In this document: in pieces, positions 2,918-61,835 of the stretch
Layout: the number at the start of each line of letters is the position of its first letter
Position numbering within the stretch: the stretch's first letter is position 1
Assembly (NCBI RefSeq): GCF_913055835.1
Contig: NZ_CAJXKQ010000021.1
Span: 1-64,000 of the forward strand
Reading direction: 5' to 3'
Source: an uncultured Marinobacter sp.
GTDB taxonomy: Bacteria; Pseudomonadota; Gammaproteobacteria; Pseudomonadales; Oleiphilaceae
DNA length: 64,000 nucleotides
The notes under the pieces: model-generated
The model's input: the letters and a program-made list of their open reading frames with translations, nothing else
Told to the model about the DNA's origin: nothing
Database searches by the model: none
Made by a program: the position numbers and the translations under genes

Positions 2918-3027
2918 GAATCGGTCAGGGATGGCTTCCCAAAACTGTTGAGGGCCATGGACGGCCCGAAACAAGCGCACATGGATGTGCTCGTAGCGTG
3001 TTTTGGGAAGCCATCCCTGACCGATTC
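2918..3027. repeat. Family A palindromic element A3
   Basis: Arms 2918-2945 and 3000-3027 pair perfectly over 28 bp. The 54-nt core (2946-2999) has hairpin 1 GGGCC-ATGGAC-GGCCC and hairpin 2 GCACAT-GG-ATGTGC. The right arm ends on the base next to the hisG stop codon (3028-3030, minus strand), so the hairpin would begin immediately after hisG translation ends. It lies between hisG and hisD, read in the same direction. Confidence 0.9.
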
Positions 3028-15951: not shown

Positions 15952-17313
15952 ATGACCGATATTCTGGAAAAAAGCCAGGCCCGCCAGCGCCTTCGCTCCC
16001 TGAGTGAAGCCCTGGACAGTGGCGCACTGAAGCAGGTTGCCCGCATCCTGAACGGTGGCCTGAGCCCCAGTGATATTGCCCATCTGCTGGAATCCTCCCC
16101 GCCCCGGCAGCGTGCCCTGCTGTGGAACCTGGTAGACAAAGAGCTCGAAGGCGAGGTTCTCCAGTATCTCAGCGACGATATCCGGGGTTACTTCCTGAGC
16201 CAGCTTAATGCTCAGGAACTGGCGGATATCATCGAGGATTTCGAGTCGGACGACCTGGCCGACCTGCTCCAGCAACTACCGGATACGGTCATCCAGGAAG
16301 TCCTGGAAACCATGGACGAGCAGGACCGCCAGCGGGTAGAGGAAGTGCTCTCCTATCCGGAGGACACCGCCGGCGGCCTGATGAACACGGACACCATTAC
16401 GGTGCGCCCGGACATCAGCATCGACGTTGTTCTCCGCTACCTGCGCCGGCACCGAAACCTGCCGCCCATGACCGACAGCCTGATCGTGGTCAGCCGGCGG
16501 GATGATTTCATTGGCATGCTGCCGATTACCAAGATGCTGGTATCGAATCCCGCCTCCACCGTGCGGGAAGTGATGGATACCGACATCGAGCCGATTCCCG
16601 TAAGCCTCTCCGACACCAAGGTAGCGACCTTGTTTGAACGCTACGACCTGATCTCGGCGCCGGTGGTGAACGAGGAAGGCCGGCTGCTCGGGCGCATCAC
16701 CATCGACGACGTGGTTGACGTTATCCGCGAGGATGCCGACCACTCCCTGATGAGTATGGCGGGTCTGGATGAGGACGAGGATACCTTTGCGCCGGTGTGG
16801 AAAACATCGCGCCGCCGGGCCGTCTGGCTGGGGATCAATCTGATCACCGCCCTGATCGCATCGGCTGTCATCGGGTTATTCGAGGAAACCATCGCCAAGG
16901 TCGTGGCACTGGCGGTACTGATGCCGATTGTCGCAAGTATGGGGGGCATAGCTGGCAGCCAGACCCTCACCCTCGTGATTCGCGGCATGGCTGTCGGGCA
17001 GATCAGCGGTGCCAACGTTAAATGGTTACTGAACCGGGAGTTTCTCTCGGGCATCCTGAATGGAATGCTTTGGGCCGCCGTTGTCGCCGGGGCCGCCATG
17101 CTCTGGTTCCAGGATGTGCTGATTGGCGCCATCATAGCTGCCGCGCTGGTGATCAACCTGGTTGCCGCTGCACTGGTGGGCACGGTTTTGCCCCTGTTTC
17201 TCAAATCGCGGAATATTGATCCTGCCCTGGCAGGCAGCGTGATTCTCACGACCGTTACGGACGTGGTCGGGTTCATGGCATTTCTTGGCCTTGCCACAGT
17301 TTTCTACGCCTAG
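15952..17313 (+). CDS. mgtE: Magnesium transporter MgtE
   Basis: Mg2+-gated magnesium channel of the inner membrane. The protein is 453 aa in the usual order: N-domain (about 20-130), a pair of CBS domains (about 135-255), then five transmembrane helices (about 285-453) with the IVASMGGIAGSQTLTLVIRG (partly shown) pore-lining segment and the C-terminal DVVGFMAFLGLATVF. It follows the PTS genes but probably has its own promoter. Confidence 0.95.
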   Translation: MTDILEKSQARQRLRSLSEALDSGALKQVARILNGGLSPSDIAHLLESSPPRQRALLWNLVDKELEGEVLQYLSDDIRGYFLSQLNAQELADIIEDFESDDLADLLQQLPDTVIQEVLETMDEQDRQRVEEVLSYPEDTAGGLMNTDTITVRPDISIDVVLRYLRRHRNLPPMTDSLIVVSRRDDFIGMLPITKMLVSNPASTVREVMDTDIEPIPVSLSDTKVATLFERYDLISAPVVNEEGRLLGRITIDDVVDVIREDADHSLMSMAGLDEDEDTFAPVWKTSRRRAVWLGINLITALIASAVIGLFEETIAKVVALAVLMPIVASMGGIAGSQTLTLVIRGMAVGQISGANVKWLLNREFLSGILNGMLWAAVVAGAAMLWFQDVLIGAIIAAALVINLVAAALVGTVLPLFLKSRNIDPALAGSVILTTVTDVVGFMAFLGLATVFYA

Positions 17314-17319
17314 TCGGGT

Positions 17320-17522
17320 GTCGGATTACGCGTTGCTAATCCGACCTACGGTTAGGTTAGGATTTTTTGCTTGATCGTTTGGCGGATTACGCTTCGCTAA
17401 TCCGACCTACGGTTGGGCGAGGATTTTCTGCTTGATCGTTTGTCGGATTACGCGTTGCTAATCCGACCTACGTTCAGGTGCTCTCTTTTTTTGTAGGTCG
17501 GGTTAGCAAAGCGTAACCCGAC
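17320..17522. repeat. REP-like palindrome array with 61-bp tandem period
   Basis: Four copies of the GTCGGATTA...TAATCCGAC palindrome lie at 17320-17350, 17381-17411, 17442-17472 and 17493-17522, the last inverted. The first three are spaced by exactly 61 bp, and the spacers are also alike (GGATTTT(T/C)TGCTTGATCGTTT), so this is a tandem duplication. The fourth has G/C changes on both sides of the stem (GGGTTA/TAACCC). It fills the mgtE-yjgA gap, and yjgA begins 15 bp later. Confidence 0.88.
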
Positions 17523-17537
17523 AACCAGGCTGAACTT

Positions 17538-27421: not shown

Positions 27422-27511
27422 TTACCGTTCACACATTTACCTTATGGGCTGGGGCCTCCCGCCATTGTTCGAATCTGTTACCATACTGCCCTTAATTTTT
27501 ATTTGGGTGCA

Positions 27512-27621
27512 GGGGCGGTTGGAAAAGGCTGTCCAAAACACGCTACAAGCACATCCCTGTGCGCTTGATTCGGGCCATCCATGGCCCTCAACAGTTTTGG
27601 ACAGCCTTTTCCAACCACCCC
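27512..27621. repeat. Family A palindromic element A4
   Basis: Arms 27512-27539 and 27594-27621 pair at 27 of 28 positions. The core (27540-27593) is the short type in inverse orientation to A3. It lies in the divergent mreB-gatC gap (363 bp), nearer gatC. Transcription starting left of it would place the hairpin in the gatCAB leader. The rest of the gap presumably holds both promoters, but I see no clear hexamer pair. Confidence 0.88.
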
Positions 27622-27685
27622 CGGACCCCGTGCAAGATTCCGGCTTCTTTTATTACCGACATTTCATTTACCTGGGAGGCAATGC

Positions 27686-30963: not shown

Positions 30964-31023
30964 CCACTTTGGCTTGGGCCGTGGCTCTTGGCTTCGGCCC
31001 AAGCCTGCTAGTTTGGAGGGCTG

Positions 31024-31130
31024 CCATGGTGGGTAGAGCCTCCCAAAAAACGCCCGTAAATACATCCCTGTAGGGCTTCGTCGCGCCATCCCTGGCGCTC
31101 CAGATTTTTGGGAGGCTCTACCCACCACGG
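31024..31130. repeat. Family A palindromic element A5
   Basis: Arms 31024-31049 and 31105-31130 pair at 25 of 26 positions. The core (31050-31104) is the second sub-type: GGCGC-type hairpin 1 with a loop ending in CCATC, and a hairpin CCCGTAAATACATCCCTGTAGGG. It lies in the 364-bp convergent gap between gatB and rimO. Two REP-like palindromes make up most of the remainder. Confidence 0.87.
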
Positions 31131-31181
31131 CACTCGAACTGGCGGCGTGTCCTCGCGAAGACAGAACATGAAAGCAAAATC

Positions 31182-31266
31182 GTAGGTCGGATTAGCGAAG
31201 CGTAATCCGACACCTTTGAACGACAGACTCCTTTGTCGGATTACGGCTTCGCCTAATCCGACCTAC
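31182..31266. repeat. Two REP-like palindromes, inverted pair
   Basis: Copies of the GTCGGATTA...TAATCCGAC palindrome at 31182-31212 and 31235-31266 in opposite orientation, between gatB and rimO. An inverted pair of this kind could itself fold into a larger hairpin. Confidence 0.8.
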
Positions 31267-31327
31267 TGCTCCTCCCGCCGAGGCTCGCCCCCAGAACCAG
31301 AAGGCCAGGAGCCCAAGCTAGACGACA

Positions 31328-34459: not shown

Positions 34460-36118
34460 ATGTCACACCAGTCTGATCTGATTGCAGAAGATATTCAGGC
34501 CTACCTGAAGCAGCACGAAAACAAGGAACTCCTGCGCCTGCTCACCTGCGGTAGCGTGGACGACGGCAAAAGCACCCTGATCGGCCGCCTGCTCCATGAC
34601 ACCAAGATGATCTACGAAGATCATATGGCCAGCCTGAAAACCGACAGTGCCAAGATGGGCACCACCGGCGAGAAGCTGGATCTGGCTCTGCTGGTGGACG
34701 GCCTGCAGGCCGAGCGGGAACAGGGCATCACTATTGATGTTGCCTACCGCTATTTTTCCACCGACAAGCGCAAGTTCATCATCGCCGACACCCCGGGCCA
34801 TGAGCAGTACACCCGTAACATGGCCACCGGTGCATCCACCGCACAGGTCGCGATCCTGATGATCGACGCCCGCCACGGTGTTCTCACCCAAACCCGGCGC
34901 CATTCCTACATCGCCTCCCTGCTGGGTATCCGCCACATCGTGGTGGCCGTGAACAAGATGGACCTGGTGGACTTCAGCGAAGAGCGTTTCAACGAAATCA
35001 AGGACGACTACCTGGCGTTCGCCGCCAAACTGGGCCTGAAGGATATCCGCTTCGTGCCGATTTCCGCCCTGGAAGGCGACAACGTGGTGAACAAGAGCGA
35101 GAAGACGCCCTGGTTCACCGGCCAGCCCCTGATGGAAATCCTTGAAACCGTGGAAGTGGGCCGTGACAAGAATCTGGAGCATTTCCGCTTCCCGGTTCAG
35201 TACGTTACCCGCCCGAACCTCAATTTCCGCGGCTTCTGCGGCACCATCGCCTCCGGCGTGATCCGCCCGGGCGAAAAGGTCATGGCCCTGCCCTCGCGGC
35301 GCACCAGTACTGTCAAAGAAGTTGTAACTTTCGATGGCAACCTGGAAGAGGCCTATATTGACCAGGCGGTCACCCTCACCCTGACTGATGAAATCGACAT
35401 CAGTCGCGGCGATATGCTGGTCAAGGTGGAAGATGAGCCGGAAGTGGGCAACCGCTTCAACGCTAACATCGTTTGGATGACCGATGCGCCACTGGAAACC
35501 GGTCGGCTGTATGACATCAAGCTGGGCCCGACCTTTACTTCCGGTACGGTGAAGAAGATTCATCATCAAACCGACGTAAATACCCTGGAACAACAGGCCA
35601 ACCCGAGCCAGCTCCAGCTGAACGAAATCGGCCTGTGCGAGCTGACCCTGAACCAGCCGATCGCCTTCGATCCGTACCAGCGCAACCACGTTACCGGTAG
35701 CTTTATCGTGATCGACCGGCTGTCCAACGTCACCATCGGTGCGGGTATGGTGGCTGGACTTGCCGATTCCGGCGAATCTCTCGACCCCGTTTCGGCCGAA
35801 GAGCGCGAACGCCGCCTGGCCCAGAAACCGGCGATCATTGCCTGTAATGGTCGCCAGGCCCCGGCACTGGCCCTCGCCGTGGAACGTGCGTTGTTCGACC
35901 AGGGCAAAACGGCGGTTGTGGTCACCGAAGAAAACGCCGGCGATGCAGACGAACGCCGCCGCGTTGCCCAACTTCTGACCTCACACGGTCTGGTTGCCAT
36001 TGCCGTTAACCTCGGCACTGACGTAGCAAACGCGGGGGCAACCGCGGACAGCGAGCAGGAGATTCCTGAGGCTGTTAGCAAACTTGTTCAGGAGTTGGTT
36101 CGCAGCAAGCGGGTTTGA
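34460..36118 (+). CDS. cysN: Sulfate adenylyltransferase subunit 1 CysN with vestigial CysC tail
   Basis: GTPase subunit of ATP sulfurylase. The protein is 552 aa: G domain with P-loop GSVDDGKST (31-39), DTPGHEQY and NKMD motifs, two beta-barrel domains, then an extra part from about residue 456. That part begins like the APS kinase half of Pseudomonas CysNC (SAEER...[20 protein letters not shown]). Where CysC has GLSGxGKST it reads NGRQAPALA, and it is about 97 aa against roughly 200. The kinase is therefore probably dead, while CysN itself looks intact. Confidence 0.93.
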
Positions 36119-36169
36119 TCTCTAACTTCTGAGTCGACATGAGATATCCCTGCTTCGGTGGCTGGCGCC

Positions 36170-36252
36170 GGGGTGGGGGTATCTTTTTCTTTGGAAAAAC
36201 AACTCGCTTCGCTCAGACATCTTTTTCCGGCAGAAAAAGATACCCCCACCCC
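36170..36252. repeat. Family B palindromic element B1
   Basis: Arms 36170-36190 and 36232-36252 pair perfectly (21/21). The core (36191-36231) contains GGAAAAACAACTCGCTTCGC and AGACATCTTTTTCC. It lies in the 413-bp gap between cysN and the nucleoid-associated protein gene. The T/A-rich inner arm could also act as a two-way terminator. Confidence 0.82.
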
Positions 36253-36345
36253 GTCGCCGACATACCTTGGTGTTAGCTCCCAAAGCCAAAGCAGGGTAAA
36301 CACTCGTTCTTCTTTTGGCGGACCGCTGAAACGCTCGTGGACGTG

Positions 36346-36427
36346 GGGTAGGTGCGTATTTTTCTCTAGAAAAAAGATGTCTGAGCGCAGCGAGTTGTTT
36401 TTTCGTAAGAAAAATACGCACCTGCCC
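36346..36427. repeat. Family B palindromic element B2
   Basis: Arms 36346-36365 and 36408-36427 pair at 19 of 20 positions, the exception being a T-G wobble. The core is the same as in B1 but inverted (GATGTCTGAGCGCAGCGAGT). The arms share only the AGAAAA/TTTTCT inner end with B1. Same gap as B1; the rest of the gap shows no gene. Confidence 0.82.
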
Positions 36428-36531
36428 TGCGGCCCACCACCAGAACCAGCAGACTACCAATGAATCCAACGCCAATACGTGGCAGAATCCCGCCTCTCTG
36501 AGTCAACCGAAACAACGAACAGGAGCCAAAA

Positions 36532-37548
36532 ATGGCCATCAAACACCTCCGCACTGCCTTCGCCAGCCAGTACCAGCCGGGCCAGCCAGCCCGCCTCGTC
36601 ACCGGTGAGGCCCTGCAGGAGCCCGGTGGCGATTACGAGGGGCTGCACAAGCAGATGAAGCGCCTGTTCAACAGCAAGCCCGGCAAGAAATACGGCCGGT
36701 TCTCCGAAGACCTGGGCGAGTGCCCGTTCAGCGCCTGGCTCAAGGACTATCTGGAAGACAAACAAACCTTCGGCGCCATGACCGATCGCCTGTTCGGGCA
36801 ATGGCAGGAACTGCTGACCGGTAGCCAGGAAGAATTCGATGGCCACCTGATGATTGTTCATGACGCCCTGGCGGACGCCGAGGTGGTTTACCTGTTTATT
36901 CTGGAAACCGACAGCGCCATGCGGTTCGACGGCAACCAGTCATTAGACGCGACCGATGTTCTCAGCCTGTCGCGCCTGAACCTGGCCGTTCGCATCGAGC
37001 TGGATGACTGGCGCGGCAACAATCCGGCGGAGAACTACCTGACACTGGTGCATGGTCGCGGCACCGGGGAGCCAGGAGAGCTGTTCATCCGCTTGTGTGG
37101 GTTTACCAATCAGGTAGATGTGGAAAAGGAAACCATGACCTTCCTGGATGCTGTGGAAGCCTTCGCAAAATCCTCGGAGCCAGAGAAAGCGGGCGAGGTT
37201 CGCAACAAGGCCTACGAGTTCTGCAAGGAACAGCATGCCCTGGGCGAGCCAGTGGAAATTGAGGCGCTGTCCGGCTACCTGGACGAGAGCGAGCCGCAAC
37301 GCTTCAAGGAGTTCGCCTCGAAAACCGCCGAATTGCCGGAGAGCGGTGTGCTTCACCCTGATCATCGCAAGGTCAAGAAACTCGTGCGGATCGCCGGCTC
37401 TGGCGGCGGCATGAGCGTTTCATTTTCATCCGATCTGGTGAATCAGGCGGTTTACTATGACCGCGACAAAGACGCCTTGACGATTACCCGGCTTCCGAAG
37501 GCCCTGCGGGAGCAGCTTCAGCGGTACCTGGAGGCTCGTGAGGAGTAG
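36532..37548 (+). CDS. ndpA: Nucleoid-associated protein NdpA/YejK family
   Basis: A 338-aa protein of the NdpA/YejK family found in the nucleoid. It has family-like stretches such as FNSKPGKKYGRFSED near the N-terminus and a C-terminal region with VKKLVRIAGSGGGMSVSFS (partly shown). GGAG precedes the ATG. It is flanked by family B elements on both sides and is not part of an obvious operon. Its molecular role is unknown. Confidence 0.88.
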   Translation: MAIKHLRTAFASQYQPGQPARLVTGEALQEPGGDYEGLHKQMKRLFNSKPGKKYGRFSEDLGECPFSAWLKDYLEDKQTFGAMTDRLFGQWQELLTGSQEEFDGHLMIVHDALADAEVVYLFILETDSAMRFDGNQSLDATDVLSLSRLNLAVRIELDDWRGNNPAENYLTLVHGRGTGEPGELFIRLCGFTNQVDVEKETMTFLDAVEAFAKSSEPEKAGEVRNKAYEFCKEQHALGEPVEIEALSGYLDESEPQRFKEFASKTAELPESGVLHPDHRKVKKLVRIAGSGGGMSVSFSSDLVNQAVYYDRDKDALTITRLPKALREQLQRYLEAREE

Positions 37549-37593
37549 ATTTCCAGCTTCTGTTTCGTAGCCTTCTGGTTTAGCGGGCTGGCC

Positions 37594-37676
37594 CGGAGGT
37601 GGGAGGTCTTTTCTTCTGGAAAAACAACTCGCTTCGCTCAAACATCTTTTTCCGGCAGAAAGACCTCCCACCCCCG
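37594..37676. repeat. Family B palindromic element B3
   Basis: Arms 37594-37611 and 37659-37676 pair at 17 of 18 positions. The core is in the B1 orientation (GGAAAAACAACTCGCTTCGC). It lies between the convergent ndpA and trmH genes, where it could serve as a two-way terminator. Confidence 0.82.
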
Positions 37677-37705
37677 GACCGATCTCACAAAAGAGTAATT
37701 TCCTT

Positions 37706-38443
37706 TTATTGCTCATCTGCGGTGATTTTGGGTTCGTCATCCCATCGTGGGCGATTCGCCCTCAGTTTTCTTACTTCCTGCATCCAGCCTACCCCGTCGA
37801 CCAATTCACCCGTTTCCGGATCGATGGGCGGATATGGCAGATTGCGGTCGTCGCAGTAGCGTTTGACCGTAGGCTGACACCAGCGAAACAGCAGCCGGTT
37901 GTATTCGCCGTCTGGCAGACGGCACTGGTCGAACATGCCGGCCAGTTTTCTTTGCCGCTGGGCTTCGGACAGGATAATCGCGCAGGCGGACGAGACGTTG
38001 AGCGACTCCACCATTCCCATCATCGGAATCACGATGTGCTCGTCGGCCTGGGCCGCGGCGTCGGCGCTGACGCCATCCACTTCGTTCCCCATGACTACGG
38101 TACAAGGCACGGTGTAATCGGCCTCCCGAAAATCAATGGCCCGGTCGGATAATTGGGCTGCATAGATCTTATGGCCCTGCCCTTTCAAAGCAGCGATGGC
38201 TTCGTCCATGCTCCGGTGGGTGTGGGTGGTGACCCAGTTGTAGCTGCCGCCGGCGGTTTTCCGGAACGCCCGGAAGCCTTCCCTCGGCCAGACCACGTGC
38301 ATATTGGCCAAACCGAACGCATCGCAGGAGCGGATGATGGCGGAGAGGTTCCGGGGTTTGTGAACCTGGTCAGTGAGGACGCTCAGGTCTGGTTGCCGGG
38401 TGTTGAGGGTTTGTTTGATTCGGGCTAGGCGTTCGGGGGTCAT
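37706..38443 (-). CDS. trmH: tRNA (guanosine-2'-O-)-methyltransferase TrmH
   Basis: SPOUT-family methyltransferase that modifies Gm18 of tRNA. The 245-aa protein has the TrmH start MTPERLARIKQTLNTRQPDL, motif 1 HKPRNLSAIIRSCDAFG, motif 2 VVMGNEVDGVS and motif 3 IPMMGMVESLNVSSACAI (partly shown), which form the knot. It is convergent with ndpA and divergent from miaB. Confidence 0.95.
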   Translation of the reverse strand: MTPERLARIKQTLNTRQPDLSVLTDQVHKPRNLSAIIRSCDAFGLANMHVVWPREGFRAFRKTAGGSYNWVTTHTHRSMDEAIAALKGQGHKIYAAQLSDRAIDFREADYTVPCTVVMGNEVDGVSADAAAQADEHIVIPMMGMVESLNVSSACAIILSEAQRQRKLAGMFDQCRLPDGEYNRLLFRWCQPTVKRYCDDRNLPYPPIDPETGELVDGVGWMQEVRKLRANRPRWDDEPKITADEQ

Positions 38444-38473
38444 TGTGGTGGTTTGGTATTGGTTATCGGGATT

Positions 38474-38506
38474 GTCGGATTACGCCTTTGGCTAATCCGA
38501 CCTACG
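38474..38506. repeat. REP-like palindrome
   Basis: One copy of the GTCGGATTA...TAATCCGAC palindrome with the CCTTTGG loop, 31 bp upstream of trmH. Confidence 0.8.
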
Positions 38507-38532
38507 TTTTTTGCAGTAACTCAGGCGTCCGG

Positions 38533-38644
38533 GAAGTGATTGGGGGATGGCTTTCCAAAACTGTTGAGGGCCAAGGACGGCCCGAAACAAGCGCACATGG
38601 ATGTGCTCGTAGCGTGTTTTGGAAAGCCATCCCCCAAGCGCTTC
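38533..38644. repeat. Family A palindromic element A6
   Basis: The inner arms 38540-38561 and 38616-38637 pair perfectly (22/22). Pairing continues outwards to 38533/38644 with one mismatch and one wobble. The core (38562-38615) is the short type, one base different from A3 (GGGCC-AAGGAC-GGCCC). It lies in the divergent trmH-miaB gap (372 bp). Confidence 0.88.
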
Positions 38645-38815
38645 CTGCACCCAAGCAGGAAAGCACGAAATAATACCACAACCGTACTAGCAACAATCCG
38701 AGACAGAGGTGGTTGAAGAATGAGCACCCCGTTATAATACGCAGTTCCTTTTTGCTGGCGCCCCGTTTAAATCATCCAGTTCCCGGCGCAACATCCACCA
38801 GATTACGTGAGACCC

Positions 38816-40434: not shown

Positions 40435-40522
40435 GTAGGTTGGATTAGACGAAGTCGTAATCCAACATTGTGCCTGTCACAACTAAACCTGTCGGATTAC
40501 GCCTCCGGCTAATCCGACCTAC
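40435..40522. repeat. Two REP-like palindromes, inverted pair
   Basis: Copies at 40435-40466 and 40491-40522 in opposite orientation. The first has matching changes on both stem sides (GTTGGATTA/TAATCCAAC), so its pairing is preserved. Confidence 0.8.
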
Positions 40523-40560
40523 TTGTTTTTTAACTTTCGGGCCTGCACATAGAACGTAGA

Positions 40561-40673
40561 GGGCAAGGGCCGGGCGGACTTTCCAAAAACGTGGAGCGCC
40601 AGGGATGGCGCGACCGAGCCCTACATGGATGTATTTACGGGCGTTTTTTGGAAAGTCCCTCCGGCCCTTGCCC
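40561..40673. repeat. Family A palindromic element A8
   Basis: Arms 40561-40589 and 40645-40673 pair at 27 of 29 positions. The core (40590-40644) is the second sub-type, with hairpin 1 GCGCC-AGGGAT-GGCGC and hairpin 2 with an ACATGGATGT tip. It ends 70 bp before the phoH-like start codon. Confidence 0.87.
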
Positions 40674-51068: not shown

Positions 51069-52859
51069 TCAGAACTCTTCGGCAGTAAGCGCCATCATGG
51101 ACTCGCTGCCACTGCGAATACCTTCCGCCAGCGAAACCGTCTTTGGCAACAGACGATCATAGTAGAACCGCGCTGTCTTCAGTTTACCGCTGTAGAAGCC
51201 GGAGGTATCCGCTTCAGCCTGGGGTGCAGCGGCTTTGGCAATCTTCGCCCACATGTAACCCAGCGCCGTCAGACCAAAGAGGTCCAGGTAGTCGACAGAC
51301 GCGGCGCCAATGGCATTCGGATTATCCCCGGCCTGTTTGATCACATGCTCGGTCACATCATCAAGACGCTCAACCGCCGCTGCCAGCGGTTCCAGGAATG
51401 GGCGCAGGTTCTCGTCACCGCTGTTCTCTTCCAGGAAGTTCGCCACGTCCTGGGCAAACAGCTCATACAGCTTACCCTGGCTGCCAACCACTTTCCGGCC
51501 CATGAGATCCAGCGCCTGGATACCGTTGGTTCCCTCATAGATCTGGGTAATACGGCAGTCCCGGACCAGTTGCTCCTGGCCCCACTCGCGGATGAAACCA
51601 TGGCCACCGAAAACCTGTTGGCCCATGATGCAGGCGTCCAGGCCGCGATCGGTCAGGAATGCCTTGGCTACCGGGGTCAGCAACGCCACCATGCCCTCAG
51701 CGTGCTTGCGGCGTTCATCGTCTTCGGCGTACTTGGAGATGTCCAGCCACTGGGCAACATACGTGGAGAAAGCCCGACCGCCTTCCACATAGCCTTTCAT
51801 GGTCAGCAGCATGCGGCGTACATCCGGATGCACGAGGATCGGATCGGCGGCCTTCTCAGGCTGCTGTGCGCCGGTGGGCGCGCGGCTCTGGATACGGTCC
51901 AGGGCGTATTCCCGGGCACTCTGGAGAGAGGCCTCGGCAGCACCGATTCCCTGAATGCCCACGCCCAGACGCTCGTAGTTCATCATGGTGAACATGGCCG
52001 CCAGGCCTTTATTCTCTTCACCAACCAACCAGCCCCTGGCACCATCGAAGTTCATGACACAGGTGGCAGAGCCCTTGATACCCATCTTCTTCTCGATGGA
52101 ACCGCAGCTGAAGCTGTTGCGCTCACCGAGGGAACCGTCGTCATTCACCAGGAATTTGGGCACGAGGAACAGGGATATGCCTTTCGGGCCCTTGGGCGCA
52201 TCCGGCAACTTGGCGAGAACCAGGTGGATAATGTTCTCCGCCATATCGTGCTCGCCCCAAGTAATAAAGATCTTGGTACCTGTAACGTTGAAAGAGCCGT
52301 CGTCATTGGGTTCGGCCTTGGTGCGGATAATACCAAGATCGGTGCCGGCATGGGGCTCGGTCAGATCCATGGCGCCGGACCAGACGCCGGAATACATGTT
52401 GGGCAGGTATTTTTCTTTCAGTTCCTGACTACCGTGGGCGTCCAGGGCGAGACAAGCACCTGCTGTCAGCATGGGAGCCAGGCCGAACGCCATGTTGGCA
52501 CCCTGCATCATTTCCTCGAACTGGGCCACCAGGGTCTTGGGCATGCCCATGCCACCAAAGTCCGGGTTACCACCGAGGCCGTTCCAGCCGCCTTCAACGA
52601 TGGTCTGGTAGGCTTCCTTGAAGCCGTCCGGAGAAGTCACCTCACCGTCGTTCCACTTGCAGCCCTGCTCGTCACCCTCGCGGTTCAGGGGCGCCAGCAC
52701 ACCGCTGCTGATCTTGCCGGCTTCTTCCAGAATGGCGTCCGCAGTTTCCGGATCCACATGCTCGGCAACCTTGGGCAGTGAAGCCCAAAGGGCCGGGGCA
52801 TCGAAAACCTCATTCAGAACGAAACGCATGTCACGTAGGGGTGCCTGATAATCAGCCAT
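51069..52859 (-). CDS. Acyl-CoA dehydrogenase
   Basis: FAD-dependent dehydrogenase of fatty-acid beta-oxidation type, 596 aa, with the C-terminal extension found in long bacterial ACADs. The nucleotide-binding middle (DLTEPHAGTDLGIIRTKAEP, partly shown) and the YEGTNGIQALDLMGRK region of the likely catalytic Glu are present. It begins MADYQAPLRDMRFVLNEV. It is a paralogue of the next gene (53071-54870), with the same N-terminus and motifs. The true chain-length specificity is unknown. Confidence 0.93.
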   Translation of the reverse strand: MADYQAPLRDMRFVLNEVFDAPALWASLPKVAEHVDPETADAILEEAGKISSGVLAPLNREGDEQGCKWNDGEVTSPDGFKEAYQTIVEGGWNGLGGNPDFGGMGMPKTLVAQFEEMMQGANMAFGLAPMLTAGACLALDAHGSQELKEKYLPNMYSGVWSGAMDLTEPHAGTDLGIIRTKAEPNDDGSFNVTGTKIFITWGEHDMAENIIHLVLAKLPDAPKGPKGISLFLVPKFLVNDDGSLGERNSFSCGSIEKKMGIKGSATCVMNFDGARGWLVGEENKGLAAMFTMMNYERLGVGIQGIGAAEASLQSAREYALDRIQSRAPTGAQQPEKAADPILVHPDVRRMLLTMKGYVEGGRAFSTYVAQWLDISKYAEDDERRKHAEGMVALLTPVAKAFLTDRGLDACIMGQQVFGGHGFIREWGQEQLVRDCRITQIYEGTNGIQALDLMGRKVVGSQGKLYELFAQDVANFLEENSGDENLRPFLEPLAAAVERLDDVTEHVIKQAGDNPNAIGAASVDYLDLFGLTALGYMWAKIAKAAAPQAEADTSGFYSGKLKTARFYYDRLLPKTVSLAEGIRSGSESMMALTAEEF

Positions 52860-53007
52860 CTAAAACTCTCCAAAAATTCTGTCAGTCTGTTCAGGTGGCA
52901 ATAAGGCCTCTCTTGGGGCCGGTCACACCTGCTCGGGCTATGTGTCCGCTGAAGCTTATTTTTATGGGCGCTTATTCTACCCTAAAAGCGGACCGCAACT
53001 CATGAAA

Positions 53008-53036
53008 AAAGCCCGCCTCCGGGGAGCGCGGGCTTT
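53008..53036 (-). terminator. Intrinsic terminator after the second acyl-CoA dehydrogenase
   Basis: Stem AAAGCCCGC (53008-53016) / GCGGGCTTT (53028-53036); on the minus strand it is followed by a six-T run. It ends the transcript of the 53071-54870 gene, so the two dehydrogenases are probably separate transcription units. Confidence 0.8.
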
Positions 53037-53070
53037 CTGTCCTCTGGAACCGTCCTTCGGTGCCCGCGCC

Positions 53071-54870
53071 TTAGATGGCGAAGGCTTCCTCCGGCATGTC
53101 CATCAGGCTGTCGGCGCCAGCCAGCATGCTTTCCGCGTGGCCCTTGGCCCGGGGCAGCATACGCTTGAAGTAGAAGCGCGCGGTCTGGATCTTGGCGTTG
53201 TAGAACATTTCCTCGGTGGTGCCTTCAACCATCTTATCCAGGGCCACCTTGGCCATCCGCGCCCACAGGTAGGCGAAGACCGCGTAGCCGGAGTACATCA
53301 GGTAGTCCACAGAGGCCGCACCGACTTCTTCGCGGTTCTTCATGGCGGACATACCAATCTTGGTAGTCAGCTCACCCCATTCCTTGTTCATGGCCGCCAG
53401 CGGCTCGATGAATTCCTTGAGCTGCTCGTCTTCCGCGTTTTCCTTGCAGAACAGATGCACCTGCTTGGTGAAGCCCTTGAGGGATTCGCCCTGGGTCATC
53501 AGAACCTTCCGGCCTAGCAGATCCAGCGCCTGAATGCCGGTGGTGCCTTCGTAAATCATGCCGATACGGGCGTCACGGACGTTCTGCTCCATACCCCACT
53601 CGGAGATAAAGCCGTGGCCACCGAACACCTGCATGCCCAGGTTGGCGGCCTCGTAACCGATCTCGGTCAGGAAGGCCTTGGCGATTGGCGTCAGGAAGCC
53701 CAGGGCCTCGTCGGCGGCGCGACGCTCTTCTTCGGTTTTGCCACTGTGCACGATATCGGCCTGCTGCGCAGTCAGGTATATCAGGGCACGAGCGCCTTCC
53801 GCGACGGCTTTCTGGGTCAGCAGCATGCGGCGCACGTCCGGGTGGACGATGATCGGGTCAGCAATGCCTTCCGGATTCTTCGGACCGCTCAGTGAACGCA
53901 TCGCCAGACGCTCCTTGGCGTAGGCCAATGAACCCTGGAAACCCAGCTCGGCGGCACCCAGACCCTGGATCGCGGTACCGATACGAGCGGTGTTCATGAA
54001 GGTGAACATGCAGTTCAGGCCCTTGTTCTCCGGTCCGATCAGCCAGCCCTTGGCGCCGTCGAAGTTCATCACGCAGGTAGCGTTGCCGTGGATACCCATC
54101 TTGTGCTCGATGGAACCACAGGAAACGGCGTTACGCTCACCAGCAGAGCCGTCTTCGTTCGGCAGGCACTTGGGCACGATAAACAGGGAGATGCCCTTGG
54201 TGCCTTCCGGTGCGCCCGGCAGACGTGCCAGAACGATATGGACGATGTTCTCGGCCATGTCGTGCTCACCGGCAGAGATAAAGATCTTGGTACCGGTGAT
54301 GGCGTAGGTGCCATCGGCATTCGGCTCGGCCTTGGTGCGGAGGGTGCCAAGATCGGAACCACAGTGCGGCTCGGTCAGACACATGGTGCCGGTCCACTCG
54401 CCGCTGATCAGCTTGGTGAGATAAGTCTGCTTCTGCTCTTCGGTACCATGCTCTTCAATGGTGTTGGTGGCGCCGTGGCTCAGGCCCGGGTACATGCCAA
54501 AGGACCAGTTGGCGGTACCGACCATCTCACTCATAACCAGACCGAGGGAATGCGGGAGCCCCTGGCCACCGTAGTTGGGATCGGCGGTCATGGACGGCCA
54601 GCCGCCTTCTACATACTGCTGGTAGGCTTCCTTGAAGCCAGTCGGTGTTTTTACACCGTCTTCGCTCCAGGTACAGCCTTCCTTGTCACCCACCTGGTTC
54701 AGCGGAGACAGAACCTGCTCACAGAACTTGGCACCTTCCCCGATAATGGCATCCACCATATCCGGAGTAGCGTCTTCGGCACCTTCCAGGTTGGCGTAGT
54801 GCTGCTCGCTGTTCAGCAGCTCGGTCATTACGAATTTGATGTCACGCAGGGGCGCTTTGTACTCAGGCAT
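53071..54870 (-). CDS. Acyl-CoA dehydrogenase (paralogue)
   Basis: A 599-aa ACAD with the same layout as the neighbouring gene. Its start MPEYKAPLRDIKFVMTEL matches MADYQAPLRDMRFVLNEV of the paralogue, and it has GMIYEGTTGIQALDLLGRK (partly shown). ATG 54870 has GAGGTG seven bases before it; the longer frame to 54942 is unsupported. Two AAAC-N4-GTTT boxes lie about 101-125 bp upstream, suggesting fatty-acid-responsive control. Confidence 0.93.
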   Translation of the reverse strand: MPEYKAPLRDIKFVMTELLNSEQHYANLEGAEDATPDMVDAIIGEGAKFCEQVLSPLNQVGDKEGCTWSEDGVKTPTGFKEAYQQYVEGGWPSMTADPNYGGQGLPHSLGLVMSEMVGTANWSFGMYPGLSHGATNTIEEHGTEEQKQTYLTKLISGEWTGTMCLTEPHCGSDLGTLRTKAEPNADGTYAITGTKIFISAGEHDMAENIVHIVLARLPGAPEGTKGISLFIVPKCLPNEDGSAGERNAVSCGSIEHKMGIHGNATCVMNFDGAKGWLIGPENKGLNCMFTFMNTARIGTAIQGLGAAELGFQGSLAYAKERLAMRSLSGPKNPEGIADPIIVHPDVRRMLLTQKAVAEGARALIYLTAQQADIVHSGKTEEERRAADEALGFLTPIAKAFLTEIGYEAANLGMQVFGGHGFISEWGMEQNVRDARIGMIYEGTTGIQALDLLGRKVLMTQGESLKGFTKQVHLFCKENAEDEQLKEFIEPLAAMNKEWGELTTKIGMSAMKNREEVGAASVDYLMYSGYAVFAYLWARMAKVALDKMVEGTTEEMFYNAKIQTARFYFKRMLPRAKGHAESMLAGADSLMDMPEEAFAI

Positions 54871-59591: not shown

Positions 59592-59663
59592 CGCTCCAGG
59601 TTAACCGTTACGCTTTGAATCAGATTCAGTGCCATGAGGGCACCCGAAGGTTCTGGCAGGGTG

Positions 59664-59757
59664 CGGGCAGGGCTCTCCGGGATTGTAGAGGGCCATGGAC
59701 GGCCCGAGACAAGCGCACAGGGAAGTGCTTGTAGCGTATCCCGGAGAGCCCTGCCCG
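59664..59757. repeat. Family A palindromic element A11
   Basis: Arms 59664-59683 and 59738-59757 pair perfectly (20/20), and weaker pairing continues outwards on both sides. The core (59684-59737) is the short type with matched changes (GCGCACAGGGAAGTGC hairpin 2). It sits in the 203-bp bioB-bioF gap, so a bioB-bioF transcript would carry it. Confidence 0.88.
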
Positions 59758-59794
59758 TAGCCTGCTCCCCCGAGTTCAGCAACTCTTCTTAAAC

Positions 59795-61638: not shown

Positions 61639-61708
61639 TGCGACTAACCGCATTTACTTTGGAGCATTCGCCGGGAAAGGCCATTAACTCATACTTGGGA
61701 GCAAGCAC

Positions 61709-61810
61709 CGGGCAGGCAGGCCCTCCCGGGATACGCTACAAGCACTTCCCTGTGCGCTTGTTTCGGGCCATCCATGGCCCTCTACAATCCCGGGAGGGCC
61801 TGCCTGCCCG
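61709..61810. repeat. Family A palindromic element A12
   Basis: Arms 61709-61732 and 61787-61810 pair perfectly (24/24). The core (61733-61786) is the short type, inverse to A3. It lies between the convergent comF and FAD-oxidoreductase genes. Confidence 0.9.
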
Positions 61811-61835
61811 GCGCCCGGACTGTTGAGTAAGTTGT

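Follow-up and report, generated by a model that had tools for sequence, protein, structure and literature searches.

The three hairpins that surround an ndpA-type gene in a 64,000-nucleotide stretch of an uncultured Marinobacter sp. (contig NZ_CAJXKQ010000021.1, positions 1 to 64,000, hereafter the window) belong to a family of interspersed elements in which a nearly constant tip is carried by paired stems that are, in this genome, proper to each copy. According to our best explanation, which we advance tentatively and with somewhat less than even confidence, these elements (B1, B2 and B3) are REP-like, were once mobile and act as a hairpin formed by one strand and selected for pairing, while template switching may supply coupled changes to the two arms. 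Three parts of this explanation, namely past mobility, the existence of a partner and a working form made of single-stranded DNA and not of RNA, are what we infer from the comparisons reported below.

B1 (36164–36258, plus strand; outer arms 36164–36199 and 36223–36258) and B2 (36339–36434, minus strand; arms 36339–36375 and 36398–36434), an inverted hairpin that forms an inward-facing pair with B1, both precede the ndpA-type gene (36532–37548, plus strand; Pfam NA37, E = 3.3e-58), which is itself outside the elements, and B3 (37590–37680, plus strand; outer arms 37590–37611 and 37659–37680) follows it, as an earlier note on this DNA had described. A translation-factor-like GTPase gene lies upstream of B1 and a SpoU-type methylase gene downstream of B3. 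The arm pairing given in the same note was recovered by script at 21/21 positions for B1 (36170–36190 with 36232–36252) and at 17/18 for B3 (37594–37611 with 37659–37676), and its value of 19/20 for B2 is obtained by eye in a register shifted by one base (36346–36365 with 36408–36427), the scripted register yielding 18/20. Including imperfect pairs, the outer arms are complementary over 36 columns at 86% (B1), 37 columns at 81% (B2) and 22 columns at 91% (B3), each element being about 90–95 bases long and combining outer arms of 17–21 matched bases with an inner stem. The core reported as common to the three is indeed shared (36193–36212, plus strand, 0 mismatches; 37618–37637, plus strand, 0 mismatches; 36385–36404, minus strand, 2 mismatches), a three-fold occurrence that none of 100 shuffles reached, but near-constancy is confined to its apical 19 bases, AACTCGCTKCGCTCARACA, while the flanking GGAAAAAC and TCTTTTTCC belong to a variable inner stem. 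This apical core reads AACTCGCTTCGCTCAGACA in B1 (36201–36219, plus strand), AACTCGCTGCGCTCAGACA in B2 (36378–36396, minus strand) and AACTCGCTTCGCTCAAACA in B3 (37626–37644, plus strand). When the two strands were folded as single-stranded DNA, z-scores were −8.6/−8.3 for B1, −8.3/−6.2 for B2 and −6.2/−5.1 for B3, and in each of these six folds 0/200 shuffles folded as well.

A search of the whole genome with the core returned 22 copies. Each left arm was scored with the right arms of all 22 copies, and the best partner was the one from the same copy in 22/22 cases, with a mean score of 25.1 for own pairs, 11.9 for cross pairs and 7.1 for shuffled arms. The combination of a constant core with copy-specific paired arms, expected from the three copies of the window, is therefore borne out genome-wide and recurs in other phyla, even though the stems of this genome have a loose common composition and the constancy of the core is partly ascertained, since copies were mostly found through it. 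Arm privacy varies between lineages, the own arm being superior to all cross partners in 28/42 copies of one Clostridium genome, in 9/23 of one Lachnospiraceae genome and in 95/137 named copies. These 137 copies (45-base arms) have a mean score of 17.1 versus 7.1 for shuffled arms; 63 of them exceed the best shuffle and 74 do not, which counts against our best explanation, and those that fail to beat shuffles or cross partners include weakly paired and perhaps chance sites. As for their arrangement, the cores of close pairs face inward in 6/6 cases in this genome and in 85/92 cases for neighbours less than 1 kb apart over all loci examined, a count in which the same or orthologous pairs recur. 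The genes enclosed by wide inward pairs are unrelated to each other.

In PMC3733652 and PMC2817692, REPs are described as palindromes of 20–40 bp with stems of 5–13 bp, whose stem sequences are shared family-wide and which are tied to RAYT genes. Our elements resemble REPs, BIMEs and REPINs (GTAG and CGTC super-families) in being interspersed intergenic hairpins and in commonly forming inward, head-to-head dimers. As for the GTAG or CGTC tag that REPs bear at one end, GTAG was read by eye in the outer flanks of B2 (36454–36457, minus strand) and B3 (37567–37570, plus strand) and none was seen in the B1 flank, while flanks resembling GTAGCCTGC accompany many but not all copies, as judged by eye. 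In contrast to REPs, their stems are longer, placing them outside the small-palindrome definition of PMC3733652; the stem sequence is specific to each copy instead of being shared within the family; the tip is constant across phyla; and, in this genome, no RAYT gene sits between two inverted copies, no Y1_Tnp having been found there. RAYT was a promising candidate mover, as copies flank a RAYT-like gene in three loci (L194, L234 and L236) and lie on one side of it in four more. We dropped it because L194, examined closely, has other palindromes nearer to the gene than the hairpin copies, because 5/14 genomes carrying the core elsewhere are without Y1, as is the present genome, and because 17/18 further Y1 loci are without a nearby core; a weak Y1 match 0.4 kb from a copy in the Clostridium genome G133 was broken and taken as chance. 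When 1781 open frames from the vicinity of copies were compared with each other by BLASTP, inspection by eye of the 18 largest clusters revealed no recurrent mover-like neighbour gene. That no mover was found in this genome or among the top neighbour clusters is an argument against our best explanation. One neighbour cluster of six loci resembled tRNA synthetases.

The core was matched in 111/120 genomes of the genus Marinobacter, and an exact scan of one genome per species (84,980 species) recovered at least 119 stretches. The 80 stretches listed come from Proteobacteria, Bacteroidetes, Clostridia, Nitrospirae, Desulfobacterota and other taxa, and in many of them paired arms are visible by eye around the core. 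Allowing at most one mismatch, 39 of these genomes contain from 1 to 86 core matches, although the copy number of 65 for Sedimenticola is unreliable, its reversed control amounting to 44, perhaps because the motif centre reads the same backwards. Among 299 genomes of the phylum, the core occurs in 3/4 of the genus, 0/22 of the rest of the order, 10/61 of the rest of the class and 0/212 outside the class (reversed-motif control: 0 among the rows listed), a patchiness that fits horizontal spread better than plain inheritance. No description of the element was recognised among the papers listed by literature searches on sequence strings and topics, as judged from titles and abstract openings. Interspersed extragenic hairpins are a known kind of repeat, whereas the cross-phylum tip and the copy-specific stems are unusual, and there may be overlap with Haemophilus dyads or with stem-loop families. 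Concerning the latter, a survey of 40 bacterial genomes found 67/92 families to be new, and these are likewise intergenic repeats with a shared secondary structure; as described there, they differ in being clustered by sequence within species, and the available text of that survey contains no mention of Marinobacter, Ralstonia, Bacteroides or Xanthomonas (PMC2267715).

Conservation was measured at the ndpA locus only, on loci found through the NdpA protein and not through the core (117/120 genomes matched; 30 loci compared). With up to two core mismatches, B1 and B2 are each present in 12/30 of these loci and B3 in 9/30. Across ten species, the mean pairwise identity is 0.914 for the B1 arms and 0.917 for the B2 arms, and 0.965 and 0.959 for the respective tips, beside 0.692 for the spacer before B1, 0.651 between B1 and B2, 0.876 after B2, 0.797 for the upstream gene end and 0.962 for the ndpA start, all these values coming from fixed windows in which the upstream gene end may be partly misaligned. 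Arms thus differ between loci, not within a locus. Conservation of this kind points to a role in the host, something for which a dead mobile element would have no need, and in this respect it speaks against our best explanation. The earlier proposal of a common mechanism that generates or maintains the arms is only partly supported: generation finds no support as worded there, since, by the refuting condition set in that note, arms outside the window are conserved (the orthologous B1 and B2 arms above), and what is left is maintenance, apparently exerted chiefly through selection for one-strand pairing, with template switching as a possible helper. Since the stems would only need to pair, their letters would be free to differ between loci while being held at each locus.

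The B2 arms fall into types. Type a is 99–100% identical in five species whose ndpA genes are 87–91% identical, while type b, present in three species, has CGTA replaced by ATTC in both arms, and ndpA in two of these three is 96–97% identical to that of a type-a species; in one species (L208) the left and right arms are of different types. Either a block changed in both arms together or old alleles were exchanged. The tips seem to be lacking in two species (L203 and L212), by eye as a result of a deletion fusing the left arm of B1 with the outer arm of B2. We rejected the idea that arms are copied from the target flank, as loci without B3 show no arm sequence (by eye); exact empty sites are not drawable because the spacers diverge fast. 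In the ndpA flanks of two loci (L217 and L218), a further short palindrome, GGGGTCAGATGAAAGC...TTCATCTGACCCC, is repeated where B1–B3 are absent.

Coupled changes are also apparent in the Clostridium genome G133, where columns 131–137 of the hairpin and their partners, aligned over 42 copies, are Watson–Crick in 292/294 cells, the other two being one G.T and one A.C. In these columns, departures from the commonest pair affect both sides in 71 cells and a single side in 2 (cells, not events). Pairing is less perfect in the other stems: the cells of the whole hairpin comprise 3371 Watson–Crick, 83 G.T, 68 A.C and 58 of other kinds, one fixed T-G pair contributing 41 of the G.T cells. The coupled changes of several bases in both arms that are observed here and in B2 types a and b (for which an exchange of old alleles is possible) are a feature shared with template-switch hairpins, a process proposed for RNA stems and RNA genes (PMC8794818), and the corresponding quasipalindrome correction is known in E. 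coli (PMC7202029). The elements studied here differ from the former in that they are dispersed repeats, keep a constant tip and show a strand bias. Two near-identical copies (L318 and L328) show mainly one-sided differences by eye, indicating that pairing is not restored at once.

The strand bias was assessed on isolated arm mismatches, sorted with an alignment in which G.T and A.C receive the same treatment. The counts of A.C to G.T for the strand reading AACTCGC are 67:25 for the named set (161 copies, Marinobacter records included), 108:58 for the Marinobacter set (126 copies), 19:1 for G158 (22 copies), 16:8 for G133 (43 copies) and 4:2 for IMG/VR (45 copies). A.C exceeds G.T in five of five sets, which have shared ancestry, and clearly so in three; with each sequence context taken once, p = 7e-5 (named), 3e-5 (Marinobacter), 0.012 (G158), 0.26 (G133) and 1 (IMG/VR). 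Swapped-partner controls (10:8, 24:17, 16:10 and 56:67) lean the same way, weakly, in three of four sets, while RNAalifold structures of orthologues give the opposite direction (123 G.T and 58 A.C); these structures were computed for the AACTCGC strand and could include G-U pairs, which favours G.T, and we rely on the symmetric alignment. Moreover, when the loop was made neutral, DNA folding favoured the TGTYTGA strand in 17/22, 32/39, 136/162, 31/43 and 22/23 copies, an advantage to which fixed lineage-specific loops may add. The A.C excess on one strand and the better folding of the other make the strand with TGTYTGAGCGNAGCGAGTT at its tip the probable working form, and we are moderately confident that this strand is selected to fold.

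This asymmetry weighs on a reading without any function, i.e., that the elements are old palindromes kept paired only by template-switch correction copying changes from one arm to the other, which we regard as quite improbable. Such a process would account for block changes in both arms, for coupled changes with hardly any intermediates, and would draw on a mechanism already known in E. coli and proposed for RNA stems. However, the correction is strand-symmetric and so would leave no strand preference, whereas the mismatches are asymmetric (the RNAalifold count running the other way); nor would it hold arms at 0.91 identity beside spacers at 0.65–0.69, keep one 19-base tip in several phyla or leave the mainly one-sided differences of L318 and L328. 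Template switching as the only force is therefore disfavoured by strand asymmetry and slow arms.

The 19-base tip itself amounts to two boxes around a small hairpin, AACTC-[GC..GC]-TCARACA. Its interior is made of GCGC stems with various loops in G149 (9/9 matches) and is mostly TAAA in G121 (62 matches), while in G133 inserts of 28–33 bases separate AACTCGC from GCTCRRACA in 21/30 matches. On the other strand, the common form has the centre GCGNAGC, in which N can be any of the four letters. The oligonucleotide d(GCGNAGC) is an extra-stable DNA mini-hairpin (the GNA rule), on which adjoining G.A pairs could stack. Outside the genus, 31/151 copies bear an additional small hairpin on their upstream side, with a GTAASCAAARAAA-like box after it, an arrangement encountered once on the mirrored side and 4 times in shuffles. 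Larger forms also exist: nested hairpins of about 215 bases in one Clostridium genome and, by eye, of about 270–290 bases in one Lachnospiraceae genome, and a whole unit that is an inverted dyad of about 450 bases in Haemophilus quentini. In Clostridium sp. KNHs205, only 22 bases separate two cores that face each other, as though the tip had undergone an inverted duplication.

Gene contexts were established from mechanical ORF calls, with 39/92 named rows (inside an ORF or at an edge) and 1/21 G133 rows (inside) omitted. Contexts are convergent in 23/92 named rows and divergent in 7/92 named and 4/21 G133 rows, and among tandem contexts the coding strand is the one reading AACTCGC in 14/23 named and 6/11 G133 cases, so that there is no clear orientation of the element to genes. 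Stable intergenic hairpins in commonly convergent contexts could be intrinsic transcription terminators shared by neighbouring genes, but this is very improbable: terminator-like sites number 4 versus 2.5 in shuffles, none of them after B1–B3, no T-run directly follows these three hairpins, divergent contexts occur, and terminators need no shared tip. A structured RNA, in which the hairpin of the TGTYTGAGC strand would act in a 3′ region or as a small RNA, its stem being kept by compensatory change, is a better contender, though in our view still rather unlikely. It would explain the strand bias in wobble and folding (for which RNA and DNA make the same prediction), the conservation within the ndpA locus and the many copies adjoining gene ends in the mechanical ORF calls. 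On the other hand, tandem orientations are almost balanced (14:9 and 6:5), divergent contexts are found, no sigma-70-like promoter was detected in 35900–37900, the hypervariable G133 stem is nearly devoid of wobble, and no Rfam family was recovered, matches at the gathering score being 0 in the window and limited to a tmRNA gene in 18 other loci.

The free N in GCGNAGC, given the GNA rule, and the lack of clear gene orientation suggest single-stranded DNA as the working form; together with the divergent contexts and the missing promoter, they make us lean this way, RNA being still compatible with the data. Under the REP-like explanation that we prefer, the past spread of the element, which is patchy across bacterial phyla, would probably be due to horizontal transfer together with transposition in trans. 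The working form of the element would be one single strand with TGTYTGAGCGNAGCGAGTT at the tip, and a putative partner would read this tip, perhaps along with lineage-specific internal loops, while the stems would only have to pair. Stem letters would change in pairs, sometimes in blocks, possibly with the help of template-switch repair.

A broader proposal, which we consider unlikely as it stands, is that of one class of single-stranded DNA hairpins sharing the apical motif AACTC-[GC..GC]-TCARACA (equivalent to TGTYTGA-GNA mini-hairpin-GAGTT) in distant phyla, spread by a putative enzyme or host factor and with stems rewritten as matched pairs, whence the own arms of each copy. If a tip reader were common to Proteobacteria, Bacteroidetes and Clostridia, its identification would make sense of a large set of intergenic repeats and would connect REP-like elements, dyads and attC-like logic. 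In integrons, attC sites are one-strand hairpins whose structure is kept while the arm sequence varies; their conserved part is the base, with the R and L boxes, and they need an integron integrase. The likeness to our elements thus lies in the one-strand hairpin with variable arms and a maintained structure, the difference being that the tip is conserved here and the base in attC. As to dyads, the intergenic dyads of Haemophilus influenzae are thought to help move gene loci (PMC4144887), and the inverted dyad of Haemophilus quentini may correspond to them, an identity that is only a lead. The family also provides a test bed for the old question of whether a paired stem change is a two-step product of selection or the outcome of a single template-switch event.

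Finally, the window contains other repeats. Another family, probably the Family A of the earlier note, occurs at 2918–3027, 27505–27628, 31022–31132, 38527–38650, 40561–40673, 59656–59765 and 61705–61814, and has arms of about 28–35 bases that enclose a core, about 54 bases long, which contains small hairpins itself. Palindromes of the form GTAGGTCGGATTA...TAATCCGAC, at 1439–1478, 1503–1544, 17309–17533, 31181–31273, 38473–38512 and 40490–40529, resemble published GTAG-type REPs, though the genome is without detected Y1_Tnp. An exact direct repeat of 77 bases (1–77 and 138–214) opens both the window and the contig, and the region 51475–54714 contains diverged direct repeats, 71–79% identical at a constant spacing of 2014 bases, as from a tandem gene duplication.
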